This document shows, one piece after another, positions 30,816 through 36,310 of a DNA stretch of 64,000 nt (its first letter is position 1; every line of letters begins with the position of its first letter). The notes under the pieces are model-generated. The model was not told the DNA's origin. It saw nothing but the letters and a program-made list of their open reading frames with translations, and made no database searches. Origin of the DNA: Halodesulfovibrio spirochaetisodalis. Lineage in GTDB: Bacteria; Desulfobacterota; Desulfovibrionia; Desulfovibrionales; Desulfovibrionaceae. A program made the position numbers and the translations under genes. The stretch is taken from assembly GCF_001672295.1 (NCBI RefSeq), contig NZ_JXMS01000008.1:1-64000 (forward strand), read 5' to 3'.

Positions 30816-32540
30816 CTACTGTTTCAACTCAGCCATAAGAGACTCCAGCTCCACAGCCTGTGTTCGAACATCATGCACAGATCGGCTGAATACGCTCATA
30901 GAATCAGTCGTGCTGGTTGCGATATCACTTACTTCCAGCACTGCAGTGCTTATCTGTTCACTGGTTGCAGACTGCTGTTCAGAGGCAGTTGCAATGGAAC
31001 GAATACTGTCTGCCGTTTCAATAGCCATTGCATTAATCTCTGTGAGTACCACAAGAGCCTTATCTGAACCGCTGGTCGTAATTTCGACAGATTTATCCAT
31101 CTCATTAGCAACAGAGGTTGTCCCCTCTACACCACGCTGAATGCCGCCCACCTGATCGATAACCTCTCGGGTTGCCACCATAGTCTTTTCTGCCAGCTTA
31201 CGTACTTCGTCGGCTACAACAGCAAAACCACGTCCTGCTTCGCCTGCTCGTGCCGCTTCAATAGCAGCGTTCAGTGCAAGCAGGTTAGTCTGGTCTGCGA
31301 TATCTGAAATAGTCGAAATAACGCCGCCAATGCTTTCGGCCTGAACACCGAGATCTGTAATAACGCCTCGCAGGTCTTCTGCACTCTGTGCTACGGAACC
31401 AATGGCATCTTTAAGTTCAGCAATAACAACAGCACCTTCATCGGAACGCCCACGAGTCTCATCTGCCTTATGTGCAGCATCACTGGCGTTACGTGCAATA
31501 TCCAGAACAGTAGAGTTCATTTCATCAATGGACATAGCAGTATCAGAAATTCGAGAACGCTGCTCATTGGCACCCTCTTCAATCTGACTGATCTGGTCAG
31601 TCAAAGACTCCGTAGTAGCCACAACTGACCTCATGGTTACGCTGGACTTATTGGCAGTTGCAATAATGCGTGAAGATATTTTTTGAATATCTTCCTCACG
31701 TGCTTCAACTTGTGCACGGGCGCTTTGTGCTTCATTGGTGCTGCGTTCTGCAATTGTGGTCTTTTCTTCTGCTTCCTGAATCTGCTTACGCAAGCTTTGC
31801 ACCATAGAATTCAATGCACGGGCAAGCAAACCAAGCTCATCTACCCGCCTAATATCAAGATCAGACACAGCATCAGGATCATGTCCCACACGCTCTGCAA
31901 CGCCGGACACTATACTCAGTTCACGAGCAGTTTTAGCGTACCCAAGACAAACAGTAATAAGAAGTGAAATAACAACAAGAATGGTCGCAATAACAGCGTA
32001 GTAAAGAGTACTGAATGCTTCATCAAACTCTGCTGCGGACTGCGCTTTTACTTCTTCATAATATTTTTCAACAACAGCGAACCCTTCAAATGCAGGTTTA
32101 TCGCTGATTTTTACTACAGCATCTATCTGAGCAGGTGTTTTCCCCTCGCTCCACAATCGTTTAACAAGCTTAACGTTTTCAAAATAGTTATCCATTACCC
32201 CTTCGATCTTATCGAGGGCTTCCTTTTCCGCAGGGGTAATATCACGAAGTTTTTCGTACCTGTTTACTGCGTCAGAAATTGCCTGCTGGTTTCCTGTAAC
32301 ACGGTCATAGTATTTATTAGTCCCTCGCAATACATAGTTTTTAAAGTTATGGATAATACCACCATAACCAAATTGGGACTTCATCGTCAGCAGCAATTCC
32401 TGACGGGTTGCTACACGTTCAGAAAAATCATCATAGGCAGCACCGAGATGTTGCAGCGTATAATACAAGACAGGGGCAGAAATAAGAACTGTAACCACCC
32501 CCACTAACAGAAAATTAGATGCCTTACGTTTAATATTCAT
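30816..32540 (-). CDS. methyl-accepting chemotaxis protein
   Basis: 574-residue chemoreceptor. First transmembrane helix at about 9-31, a helical periplasmic domain to about 180, second helix about 180-203, HAMP (205-260), then the long cytoplasmic coiled-coil with the signalling tip [38 protein letters not shown]-type sequence (recognised by its invariant core EAARAGE). No C-terminal CheR-docking pentapeptide is visible. The periplasmic domain resembles a helical-bundle sensor; its ligand is unknown. A sigma-28-like promoter lies about 210 bases upstream. Confidence 0.9.
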
Positions 32541-32835: not shown

Positions 32836-32862
32836 AAAAAAGCCGACATTTGTCGGCTTTTT
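32836..32862. terminator. intrinsic terminator downstream of the binding-protein/deaminase fusion
   Basis: AAAAAGCCGACA and TGTCGGCTTTTT arms with a 2-3 base loop, symmetrical, 27 bases after the stop of the minus-strand gene. Confidence 0.88.
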
Positions 32863-32888: not shown

Positions 32889-34049
32889 TTATTCGTAAGT
32901 AAAACCTTTGTTACCCGACAAAATAGGATATGGGAGCAATTGCGATACCATGATCATTTTCACATCCCCCTTATCCGGCTCCACAGCAGCAAGAATGCCA
33001 CGTCCGAACTCGAATAAGAACTGTCTGTCTTCTGCAGTAGGAGCTACAACGGAACCATCAGCAGCTAATGCCGCAACTGCACGGAAATCGTACTCACCAT
33101 CAGCAATCGCTTTCAGCACGGCTGTTTTGATAGCTGAAATATTTTCCTTTGCTGTCTCAACATTACATCCAACATACATTTTACCGGAGCGCGTAAGCAC
33201 TGCAGCGCCCACAGGAGATTTAGTATATGGAGCATAGGCGTTCACGGCTGCTTTAGAAGCTTCATCAAACAAATTGCTCAGTTCATCTTCCTGAAGCTCC
33301 GGCACAAACCATTTACGGTAAATTCTGTCATATTCGCCTGTAGCAACTACACGCTGAAAACCCTTATTAACCATCTCCAGAATGCGGCCTTTATCACGGT
33401 TAACCGCAATGTAGGAATCTGTAATGCGCAGCAAGCTGCCAACCGGACTGATTTTTCCATATCTAAAGCGCTTCAGGTAATAGTATGCTGTCTGCTCAGG
33501 CCCGCAGTAGGCTTGAACCTGATCACGGCCAAGTGCATGAATTGCATCTACTTTACTTGGGAATGCTTTAACATTCATACCGCCGAACTCTTCCAGAACA
33601 CGTTGCTGGAAAGAACCGCGCTTTACTGAAACGGATTGTCCGCGAAGTAAGGTAATATTACCAACTCTGTTGGTAGCTTTCGTGAAAAGACGTACCTTCA
33701 TTGGAAGCGTTGGTTTTTCACTGAAATTAAAAAGCAGGCTGCGCTGTTTAGTCTTTGCCATCCCTGTAGATAAATCAATTGCACCGGAAGAAAGTTCCAT
33801 CAACACATGATCCCAGACAAGCGGTCTGGTCACCAGTTTAACATTCTGTCCTTTAAAAATAGCGCGAATAAGGTCAACATCGAACCCGACAGCTTTCCCT
33901 TTTGCTTCCTCAAATGAAAACGGCGGGAATTCTCTGTCAAACCCATACACAACCTTAATTGGCGCTTCTGCGTATGCATGCGGCACAACAACAAAAGAAC
34001 ATACACTCAGGGCAATGCCCATAAACACAGCTAAAAATCGACAGCGCAT
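32889..34049 (-). CDS. periplasmic solute-binding protein (family 3) fused to a degenerate cytidine deaminase domain
   Basis: 386 residues with a signal peptide ending near AYAEA. Residues about 25-250 form a family 3 solute-binding domain (VVYGFDREFPPFSFEEAKGK-type start; GQSVSVKRGSFQQRVLEE in lobe 2). From about residue 258 the chain is cytidine-deaminase-like: NAYAPYTKSPVGAAVLTRSG, GCNVET (294-299) and a C-terminal LLPYPI. The catalytic residues are gone: the CAER motif is replaced by SAIK (305-308), and the PCGACRQ zinc loop by PTAEDRQ (337-343). No deaminase activity is expected. I chose the ATG at 34049 because CAGGAGATAGGA precedes it. It stands alone, without ABC permease genes nearby. 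Confidence 0.8.
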   Translation of the reverse strand: MRCRFLAVFMGIALSVCSFVVVPHAYAEAPIKVVYGFDREFPPFSFEEAKGKAVGFDVDLIRAIFKGQNVKLVTRPLVWDHVLMELSSGAIDLSTGMAKTKQRSLLFNFSEKPTLPMKVRLFTKATNRVGNITLLRGQSVSVKRGSFQQRVLEEFGGMNVKAFPSKVDAIHALGRDQVQAYCGPEQTAYYYLKRFRYGKISPVGSLLRITDSYIAVNRDKGRILEMVNKGFQRVVATGEYDRIYRKWFVPELQEDELSNLFDEASKAAVNAYAPYTKSPVGAAVLTRSGKMYVGCNVETAKENISAIKTAVLKAIADGEYDFRAVAALAADGSVVAPTAEDRQFLFEFGRGILAAVEPDKGDVKMIMVSQLLPYPILSGNKGFTYE

Positions 34050-34234
34050 TCCTATCTCCTGAAAAAACATGCTTCGCGGTAAGCCTGTATCGCTTTCTTT
34101 AACAATAGTAGTTTCACCCTCTCACTGCCTGTATTGGCATACAAAAAGGCAGTCTCCATACTCTTCGGCATGATCACAAAAAACTGTAATTAATGCCTGA
34201 AGGGTCGTAAGACTACCTTTAGTATATTGGTTCG

Positions 34235-35026
34235 CTAATTCTGTTTCAGAATACGGATTATTTGTTTAACTTTTTCCGGTTCCCGTTTATACACTGCGCC
34301 TGCATAACGTTTAATCGTTTCAGCAACGGTTTCTCCACTGGTAAGAGTTGTTTCAAGATCTGGCAATTCTGGCAATTCCATCTCCTGCAACTCTTCACGC
34401 GGTAACAGCAAAATACACAGATCATCTCCCGGAATACATCCGGCTTCGCTATTTACGGTACCTACTGCGCGCTGTTTAGCCGTTTTCTCCACATCCATCT
34501 CTCGCACAACACTGAGTACCTGTGTTGGGGAATGGTCACGATTCACCTTTTTGATGCGTTCATTCAACTCATCGCACCACTCAAGATATCTATAATACCC
34601 TGTTGTCTTTCCGTATTTCTCCGCAGTATTTTTCCTGTAAGTTATGCCGTGCAGAAAGAAATCAAAAGCATTCAGCATGCGGGTATACGTTTCAAGGACG
34701 CACTTTCTATAACGCCCCTCAGTCGTAAGAGCGAATGGCACAGGCATACTCAACCACGGATCTGACTCTTCTATACGTGACACAAACTCCGGTGAAACAC
34801 CTATTGCGCGCAGCATATTTTCCAGATCCTCTCTGGAGGTAAGCAGTGCCTGCAGTTGACCACAAATATTGAGTGCACGTTGTTCAGAAAGCCTGATGTC
34901 ACTTTCTACAAACTCAAAAAGTGCACGTTCATCATCAATTGCTATACGCGCCCCAAAAAAATTACTCGCTATATCTGTCATCACTTCCCCCCGTAGGGCG
35001 GAAGAAAGAGTATCAAAGTCTGCCAC
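34235..35026 (-). CDS. protein of unknown function
   Basis: 263-residue soluble, mainly helical and acidic protein without signal peptide or membrane segment. The start is GTG with AGGAGG 8 bases upstream. Distinct stretches are IEESDPWLSMPVPFALT, NAFDFFLHGITYRKNTAEKYGKTTGYYRYLEW, and a C-terminal ETIKRYAGAVYKREPEKV. I recognise no domain. It is divergent from pncC. The strong ribosome binding site and even codon use indicate a real gene. Confidence 0.75.
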   Translation of the reverse strand: MADFDTLSSALRGEVMTDIASNFFGARIAIDDERALFEFVESDIRLSEQRALNICGQLQALLTSREDLENMLRAIGVSPEFVSRIEESDPWLSMPVPFALTTEGRYRKCVLETYTRMLNAFDFFLHGITYRKNTAEKYGKTTGYYRYLEWCDELNERIKKVNRDHSPTQVLSVVREMDVEKTAKQRAVGTVNSEAGCIPGDDLCILLLPREELQEMELPELPDLETTLTSGETVAETIKRYAGAVYKREPEKVKQIIRILKQN

Positions 35027-35137
35027 TGGTACTGCCTCCTGTTATTATTCTATTCTACCCTGCGCACTGACAATCTAGCAAGGACTGCTTGCTATGCCTT
35101 TACTGCAATGGTAGCGAAGGCAAAGGGAGTACATCAT

Positions 35138-35626
35138 ATGCATATTCCAGAATTATCAGCTGAAATATCAGAACTTGGCGAAGTTCTGCGTCAAAAAAAA
35201 TACATGCTCGGCACTGCAGAGTCCTGCACCGGTGGACTTATCTCCATGCTGCTGACTGAAGTTTCCGGTTCCTCTGACTGGTTTTCAGGCGCTATTGTCT
35301 CATACGCAAATGAAATAAAAGAAAAGATTGTACATGTACCGCACGAAACGCTTGTTCAATACGGCGCTGTAAGCAAAGAAACTGCTTTGGCCATGGCACA
35401 GGGAGTACAGTCCGCTTTGGATGTGGATGTCGCGGTCTCGGTAACCGGAATTGCAGGCCCTACTGGCGGTTCAGCAGAAAAGCCCGTGGGAACAGTATGG
35501 ATTGGGTACGCCATTGGCACACAGTTATTTACTCAACACCATGTGTTCAGTGGTGACAGAGCTGATGTGCGATACCAGACAGCTATGGCAGCGATTACAA
35601 CACTGCTGCATGAATTAACGCGCTAA
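35138..35626 (+). CDS. pncC: nicotinamide-nucleotide amidase (CinA C-terminal family)
   Basis: 162-residue stand-alone CinA C-terminal domain, converting nicotinamide mononucleotide to nicotinate mononucleotide in NAD salvage. Visible motifs are GTAESCTGGLISMLLTEVSGSS with the catalytic serine region, GAIVSYANEIKEKI, YGAVSKETALAMA and VTGIAGPTGGSAEKPVGTVW. I chose the ATG at 35138, with GGGAG 8 bases upstream, over the ATG at 35108. Confidence 0.88.
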   Translation: MHIPELSAEISELGEVLRQKKYMLGTAESCTGGLISMLLTEVSGSSDWFSGAIVSYANEIKEKIVHVPHETLVQYGAVSKETALAMAQGVQSALDVDVAVSVTGIAGPTGGSAEKPVGTVWIGYAIGTQLFTQHHVFSGDRADVRYQTAMAAITTLLHELTR

Positions 35627-35769: not shown

Positions 35770-36255
35770 CTATACGAGGTAGTCACCACGGTTAATTTTA
35801 AACTGTTCGGTCACGGTCATAACCTCAAGCTCATTGCGTACGTCATCCAGCTCAGGGAAGTCGGCTTTCAGAGACGGTGCAGTCTGTTTGAGTGTTGCAA
35901 GGTTATGTGCAAGCTCCTTAAGGGTTCCAAAGGCGCCTTTAAGATCCGGTGTACCCTGTGAACTGATCTGTGTGGAATATTTTTCCCATTGGTTCAGGAT
36001 TCCTTCCAGATCATCAGCTACTTTTTTCGGATCTACAGCTGCCGGAGCAACGTCCTTCTGCTCTGCATTCAAACGCGGGTCAAACGCTATGGAGCGAGTA
36101 CCGGGAGGCAACATTGCCTCTGTTGCAGACTTACTCTGCAACTCAAGTTCCTGTGAAAGCAGATTGTGAAAACCGTCTGCAGCCCGTTTAGGAGCTTTGG
36201 TTGCCTGACTCTGCTTCGCTATCGATGTGATGTGTTCTGTAGTATTAATTCTCAT
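35770..36255 (-). CDS. unknown protein behind a sigma-54 promoter, possibly flagellar
   Basis: 161-residue soluble protein without signal peptide. Residues 1-40 are polar and Ala/Lys/Gln-rich, then FHNLLSQELELQ, a Pro-rich linker, and a helical C-terminal half (DLEGILNQWEKYSTQIS to LEVMTVTEQFKINRGDYLV). The ATG at 36255 gives the N-terminus MRINTTEHITSI. I do not recognise the family. The sigma-54-type promoter 38 bases upstream and the F-x-x-L-L-x-x-E-L pattern, seen in some flagellar rod or hook-length proteins, suggest a motility role; this is inference. Confidence 0.65.
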   Translation of the reverse strand: MRINTTEHITSIAKQSQATKAPKRAADGFHNLLSQELELQSKSATEAMLPPGTRSIAFDPRLNAEQKDVAPAAVDPKKVADDLEGILNQWEKYSTQISSQGTPDLKGAFGTLKELAHNLATLKQTAPSLKADFPELDDVRNELEVMTVTEQFKINRGDYLV

Positions 36256-36292
36256 AACAATATCCCCGGCGATTAGGATTTGCTGTGAATGA

Positions 36293-36310
36293 AGCAAAGA
36301 GCTTGCCAAA
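36293..36310 (-). promoter_or_regulatory. candidate sigma-54 promoter
   Basis: On the minus strand TTGGCAAGCTCTTTGCTT: the GG and GC dinucleotides are exactly 10 bases apart, as in TGGCAC-N5-TTGC. It lies about 38 bases upstream of the ATG at 36255, a good distance for a start near 36282. Confidence 0.6.

Follow-up and report, generated by a model that had tools for sequence, protein, structure and literature searches.

A predicted exported fusion of a family 3 solute-binding domain with a catalytically dead cytidine deaminase domain in Desulfovibrionaceae

The closest described systems to the protein reported here are the family 3 solute-binding proteins (SBPs) and the cytidine deaminases (CDAs), of which those of the tetrameric type are homotetramers. 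The CDA fold also occurs without zinc in the C-terminal domain of the dimeric E. coli-type CDA (PF08211, part of TIGR01355), where the dead domain is part of an active cytosolic enzyme. The AICAR transformylase domain of PurH, as well as FdhD, likewise has the CDA fold without the zinc deaminase site, and both are distant and cytosolic. A preliminary description of the present gene, made from the sequence, had named no described system that joins an SBP to such a domain. In agreement with this, searches of one open-access library turned up no description of the fusion as a conserved exported pseudoenzyme; a retrieved passage (PMC8209720) concerns a TRAP transporter and is not relevant to the fusion. 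Both component families are known, and, within this library, their combination as a conserved exported pseudoenzyme appears to be new.

We analysed a stretch of 64,000 nucleotides from Halodesulfovibrio spirochaetisodalis (the window), in which the following features were located.

32889..34049, minus strand: gene for the fusion of an SBP_bac_3 domain and a dead cytidine deaminase domain, 386 aa plus stop
33969..34049, minus strand: signal peptide, residues 1-27, with cleavage expected after AYA (25-27), from hydropathy and the AxA motif
33303..33965, minus strand: SBP_bac_3 domain, residues 29-249 (Pfam match 34-248), with D38, W79, T100 and R103 conserved and Pro at 184
32922..33281, minus strand: dead tetrameric-type cytidine deaminase domain, residues 257-376, from sequence matches and a model
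33153..33167, minus strand: CNVET, residues 295-299, equivalent to the ribose-contact motif CN[VI]EN, with Glu298 kept in 38 of 40 members
33123..33137, minus strand: SAIKT, residues 305-309, equivalent to C-A-E-R/Q of active CDAs, with the first zinc Cys and the catalytic Glu lost
33021..33041, minus strand: PTAEDRQ, residues 337-343, equivalent to PCGACRQ of active CDAs, with two zinc Cys lost
32837..32862, minus strand: intrinsic-terminator-like hairpin of 11 pairs with a T-rich tail, directly after the fusion gene

We then investigated the distribution of the fusion, using a search profile (A1) built from 19 of its relatives, across genomes sampled from this phylum, and also in viral contigs, plasmids and one named genome collection, the last with a single protein as the query. 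As a result, the fusion was found in 47 of the 288 genomes of the family Desulfovibrionaceae, in which NCBI places Halodesulfovibrio, and in 16 of its 44 genera, with relatives down to 35% identity; these searches scored only 4-9 candidates per genome, and weak relatives can be missed. The 47 include one genome (G023) in which the gene lies in two pieces on two contigs. An order sample of 199 genomes and a class sample of 297 genomes afforded 19 and 43 matches, respectively (E 1e-45 or better), all of them in Desulfovibrionaceae, and G059, present in both samples, carried the SBP half only. A phylum sample of 395 genomes yielded two matches besides the window's genome: G362, from another family, has the full fusion, and G462 has the SBP half only. 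The "TGA" inside the G362 match is its own stop codon, as the frame comprises 390 residues and the match extends nine bases beyond it. The SBP-half relatives without a CDA half lie at L098:3675-4556 (minus strand) and L099:6393-7718 (minus strand), in G462 and G059, and are candidates for the pre-fusion state.

The named collection held one locus, from "Halodesulfovibrio sp. isolate N3", with 88% identity to the window protein, and no fusion was found in the viral contigs. Among the 60 plasmid records listed out of 628, no match ended past residue 338. The five listed records with coverage of at least 80% showed 22% identity (four from Enterococcus raffinosus and one from Kozakia); one of the E. 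raffinosus records was rejected as a fusion of a binding protein and a permease on reading, and the Kozakia match was rejected since it runs from a binding protein into the neighbouring TetR gene. For the residue counts below, we aligned 40 fused members, namely those from 39 of the 47 family genomes together with G362; G023, G167, G168, G172, G176, G179, G180 and G307 were left out, and the row of G170 is cut by a contig end.

The start codon at 34049 stands behind AGGAGATAG, which is common to the window and five near relatives, and an alternative in-frame ATG lies at 34070, 21 bases upstream. The N-terminus consists of a basic n-region, a hydrophobic stretch and AYA followed by EAP, with AYA at residues 25-27, and thus bears out the signal peptide proposed in the preliminary description, as judged by hydropathy and the AxA motif and not by a dedicated predictor. 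Across 42 rows, the hydrophobic stretch was present in 40, the AxA motif in 38 and a lipobox in none, and 40 rows had no membrane-like stretch beyond the signal peptide. The fusion protein is thus predicted to be exported and soluble, with a periplasmic location suggested by this motif-level export signal. In the six near genomes, third positions of codons 1-28 (33966-34049) had a mean pairwise identity of 0.79, as compared with 0.50-0.58 in the rest of the gene, and this likeness perhaps reflects selection on the RNA structure or sequence at the translation start. In the vicinity of the gene, promoter-like sites were not in excess (8, versus 7.3 in shuffled sequences), and terminator-like sites of any strength numbered 8 in the stretch, versus 3.5 expected.

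The binding half matched SBP_bac_3 (PF00497) over residues 34-248 with an E-value of 5.6e-28 and 97.8 bits, against a Pfam cut-off of 26.4, in accordance with the family 3 assignment made earlier, and one of its solved relatives is AncQR (PDB 4zv1, E 2.1e-27). The whole-chain model had a mean pLDDT of 47.8, with residues 17-249 below 50, and the description of this half accordingly comes from sequence. In the 40 aligned members, D38 and W79 are invariant, and T100 and R103 are kept in 38 and 39, respectively; the Thr/Arg pair presumably binds the α-carboxylate of the ligand, as we take it to do in family 3 SBPs. The Asp that we take to bind the ligand's α-amino group (D157 in GlnBP) corresponds to position 184, where Asp occurs in none of the 40 members and P, A, L, M, Q or T is found instead, and the surrounding stretch aligns with AncQR without gaps. 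Since the carboxylate Arg is kept and the amino-group Asp is absent, the ligand is probably a carboxylate without the standard amino-acid head, a conclusion drawn from one aligned position. Of the two SBP-only relatives (G462 and G059), one has Ser and the other Thr at the same position, suggesting that the loss of the Asp may predate the fusion.

The C-terminal half matched the cytidine deaminase model NF004064 over residues 256-374 (E 1.5e-21, 76.8 bits, above the cut-off of 74) and TIGR01354 over residues 259-376 (E 2.5e-19, 69.8 bits, below the cut-off of 113.65), and the last 138 residues alone matched the B. subtilis CDA 1jtk with an E-value of 1.3e-18. The best Pfam match of this half is PF08211, and TIGR01355 matches it over model positions 170-238. 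The CDA motifs YAPYTKSPVGAA, GCNVET and LLPYPI, on which the homology had originally been proposed, are present in the window protein, and the profile matches confirm that proposal. Modelled alone, the half gave a mean pLDDT of 83.7, and its best solved match was the M. smegmatis CDA 3mpz (Z 19.7, rmsd 1.6 over 119 residues), so that the model has a CDA fold, rather than lacking one. However, the modelled fold was partly put in by hand, because the model's alignment took eight of its ten rows from viral contigs, in the form of CDAs whose motifs are intact; the independent evidence for the homology is therefore in the sequence matches and not in the model. The sequences L131-L135 and L137-L139, on IMG/VR viral contigs, are cytidine deaminases with intact zinc motifs. 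It should also be noted that NF004064 presents a naming trap, in that a dead protein with an export signal scores above a "cytidine deaminase" cut-off (76.8 versus 74 bits).

In the window protein, CAER has become SAIK and PCGACRQ has become PTAEDRQ, the replacements from which a dead site had been inferred before, and the aligned members bear this out throughout the family. The roles of the CDA residues (ribose contact, zinc ligands and catalytic Glu) at the aligned positions are taken to be those in the active enzymes. The first zinc Cys and the catalytic Glu were found in none of the 40 aligned fused members, including L097 of another family, and each of the other two zinc Cys (PCxxC) in none of 39, one row being cut by a contig end. 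Across the rows, the CAE positions are occupied by S, T, G or Q, then by A or P, and then by L, I, V, M, T, P or F. The C-terminal piece of G023, aligned separately, has likewise lost the zinc Cys and the catalytic Glu. With the zinc ligands and the catalytic Glu all gone, the cytidine deaminase domain is, as far as its sequence tells, catalytically dead.

The preliminary description had proposed a receptor for extracellular nucleosides, with oligomerisation as the other option. A nucleoside or nucleotide receptor would bind its ligand in the dead CDA pocket without turnover, while the SBP half would report a second ligand or couple to a partner. In line with this, 38 of 40 members retain Glu298, which is the ribose-contact Glu of the NxE motif and corresponds to B. 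subtilis E44, 24 of 40 retain Asn296, and all ten members of the window's genus keep both. However, the equivalent of B. subtilis Phe24 is Phe in only 1 of 40 members, and every member has lost the metal ligands as well as the catalytic Glu. Moreover, nine nucleoside-pocket columns had a mean entropy of 1.62, against 1.80 in random column sets, 28% of which were as low, and the seven pocket columns that remain without the Glu and one Ala had a mean entropy of 2.00. Taken as a set, the columns of the former nucleoside pocket thus show no more conservation than columns drawn at random from the domain. The nucleoside receptor thus fared poorly and is, in our estimate, unlikely, and the oligomerisation alternative, itself a proposal, fits better.

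Other positions of the dead domain are newly conserved, namely R323 (32 of 40), an acidic residue at 341 (37 of 39) and R350 (32 of 39). The acid at 341 stands where the third zinc Cys was, and its conservation might point to a novel site for binding or catalysis. One reading of the sequence is that the former zinc site has turned into a different catalytic or metal centre, built from Ser or Thr at the first Cys position (305, in 35 of 40) and the Asp or Glu at the third. Against such a centre, the residue at the second Cys position (338) is variable (S, T, A, G and others), the catalytic Glu is replaced by Leu, Ile or Val in 34 of 40 members, and position 308 retains Arg or Lys in 25 of 40; we consider it very improbable. 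A 341-308 salt bridge as a stand-in for zinc was rejected, as the two positions showed no association in 29 non-redundant rows.

We also surveyed the other deaminases of the family. TIGR01354 scored above its cut-off in 32 of the 288 genomes, and a tetrameric-type CDA above the curated cut-off was found in none of the 47 fusion genomes. This would be in favour of the nucleoside receptor, although weakly, because 31 of the 32 above-cut-off genomes belong to one genus, g5, and the exclusion is accordingly weak. In 44 of the 47 fusion genomes, the only TIGR01354 match was the fusion itself, and G080, G081 and G082 gave none. The fusion as a replacement of a lost CDA was rejected, since the dead domain cannot replace the enzyme. 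Sub-cut-off TIGR01354 matches occurred in nine further genomes without the fusion; the three that were read (G099, G159 and G203) keep CAE and PCGxC and, by these motifs, are a different, active-type group. Two of them, L146 and L147 (G099 and G159), represent a second kind of CDA-type fusion, from a different genus of Desulfovibrionaceae, in which a domain that looks GrpB-like precedes a CDA-like part whose CAE and PCGAC motifs are intact. The window's genome has three other PF00383 matches, the fusion not being listed by that search, and no dimeric-type CDA above cut-off was found in this genome.

Both halves of the fusion, including the dead CDA, are under purifying selection. Among the six near genomes, the SBP half had dN/dS values of 0.010-0.050 and the CDA half values of 0.013-0.058 (14 of 15 pairs usable each), and in a second clade of four genomes it was 0.025-0.16 for the SBP half (6 of 6 pairs) and 0.057-0.10 for the CDA half (4 of 6 usable); as dS was mostly >1, with synonymous sites near saturation, all of these values are rough. 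In the 29 non-redundant rows, the mean column entropy was 1.59 for the SBP half, 1.80 for the CDA half and 2.59 for the signal peptide, so that, within the family, the dead CDA half varies slightly more than the SBP half does. These data also bear on the view that the domain is vestigial or an assembly artefact, either a decaying remnant or two genes joined by a sequencing error. Decay would be consistent with the disappearance of every catalytic residue, but the dead domain is under the purifying selection described, within the roughness of dN/dS, and none of the 46 unsplit family matches, one of which (G170) is cut by a contig end, contains an internal stop codon. The sequencing-error join, a concern already raised in the preliminary description, did not occur, given the recurrence of the fusion in the 47 genomes. 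We therefore regard this view as exceedingly improbable.

When 39 dead and 15 active-type CDAs were placed in one tree by a quick method, a branch with an SH-aLRT value of 99 had all the dead domains on one side, and the G362 row adjoins the dead-CDA branch. The simplest reading is one fusion and one loss of activity: a tetrameric-type CDA would have been fused to the C-terminus of an SBP in a single event that preceded the split from at least one related family, although the fusion may instead have been passed between families later. The fused CDA would then have lost zinc binding and catalysis and been kept as a folded, non-catalytic module.

We next turned to the gene neighbourhood. No ABC transporter part or permease was found among the ten window neighbours scanned, nor is the gene for the methyl-accepting chemotaxis protein (MCP) or the CinA-type gene one; partners that are not linked may exist. 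The protein might be an unlinked ABC transporter subunit, that is, an ordinary family 3 SBP with its permease elsewhere and a dead CDA tail of little importance. Such a reading agrees with the strong SBP_bac_3 match, and permeases can be unlinked, but no permease gene adjoins the fusion gene in the window, and purifying selection acts on the CDA half as it does on the SBP half. The CDA half is also complete in 39 of the 40 aligned members, and a contig end truncates the remaining one. We hold this reading to be quite unlikely.

A CinA-type gene (PF02464; window 35108-35626, plus strand) is divergent from the fusion. Such a gene lies divergently upstream within 1.3 kb in 23 of the 40 fused loci by listed distance and overlaps an over-extended reading frame in three more (L115, L117 and L118), in a count for which G177, G175, G241 and G027 offer little or no upstream sequence. 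A glucokinase gene is directly downstream on the same strand, at 12-127 bases, in 10 of the 40 fused loci (L095, L100, L101, L102, L104, L105, L106, L112, L113 and L114). We take CinA and glucokinase to be old neighbours, and not proof of a shared function. The gene for a 263-aa protein with no Pfam match (34235-35026, minus strand) separates CinA from the fusion in the window and has the orientation of the fusion, and relatives stand in the same place in nine of the ten genomes of the genus as well as in G024 and G242, from two other genera. A 179-aa protein (35770-36309, minus strand), also with no Pfam match, is kept near CinA in many relatives. The MCP gene (30816-32540) lies 296-367 bases downstream of the fusion in four of the ten genus genomes and is absent from that place in five, one of the ten contigs being too short to tell. 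A partnership with this chemoreceptor was rejected, in view of the four genomes and of the terminator-like hairpin between the two genes.

Taken together, we propose an exported orphan receptor for a non-amino-acid carboxylate, in which the dead CDA serves as a scaffold or oligomerisation module, and give this proposal an even chance of being right. The SBP half, a derived family 3 Venus-flytrap domain, would close on a small acid, probably not a standard α-amino acid. The dead CDA would most likely be structural, holding several binding domains together, since CDAs of this type are homotetramers, and/or it would offer a docking surface (R323, D/E341 and R350) through which a partner in the membrane would sense whether ligand is bound. 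Three observations count against this proposal: the greater variability of the CDA half (entropy 1.80 versus 1.59), the conserved acid at 341, with the new site that it might indicate, and the retention of Glu298 in 38 of 40 members, which argues against a pure scaffold unless that Glu is structural. A further-reaching reading, which we find conceivable but doubtful, is that the proteins are a class of periplasmic pseudoenzyme receptors, in which a dead CDA tetramer bearing four Venus-flytrap domains would be a signalling hub gated by ligand, and the relic pocket might hold a second site for a nucleoside-like ligand. Such a class would so far be confined to Desulfovibrionaceae and one related family.

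The fusion clearly exemplifies how, in nature, an enzyme can acquire an export signal and lose its chemistry while staying under selection, and an old enzyme has seemingly been reused for a non-enzymatic job. This suggests that the CDA fold can function beyond the cytoplasm, as a receptor component without catalytic activity. It is also of practical concern that profile-based naming can call such dead proteins "cytidine deaminase". Apart from the signal peptide, no membrane segment is predicted in this moderately sized protein, which makes its function open to direct experiment.

Finally, the fusion can be set against the known systems. With the family 3 SBPs (PF00497; GlnH, ArtJ, HisJ and AncQR, 4zv1), it shares homology, the Thr/Arg motif, the aromatic position and the signal peptide, whereas it differs from them in the absence of the α-amino Asp (0 of 40), in the absence of ABC transporter genes among the neighbours scanned and in the additional C-terminal domain. 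With the homotetrameric Cdd (TIGR01354, NF004064; 1jtk, 3mpz), it shares sequence homology, the modelled fold and the NxE motif, but it has neither the zinc ligands nor the catalytic Glu, carries an export signal and is joined to a binding protein. In contrast to the dimeric E. coli-type CDA, the dead domain of the fusion has a receptor domain as its sole companion, and it obtains higher scores with tetrameric-CDA models.
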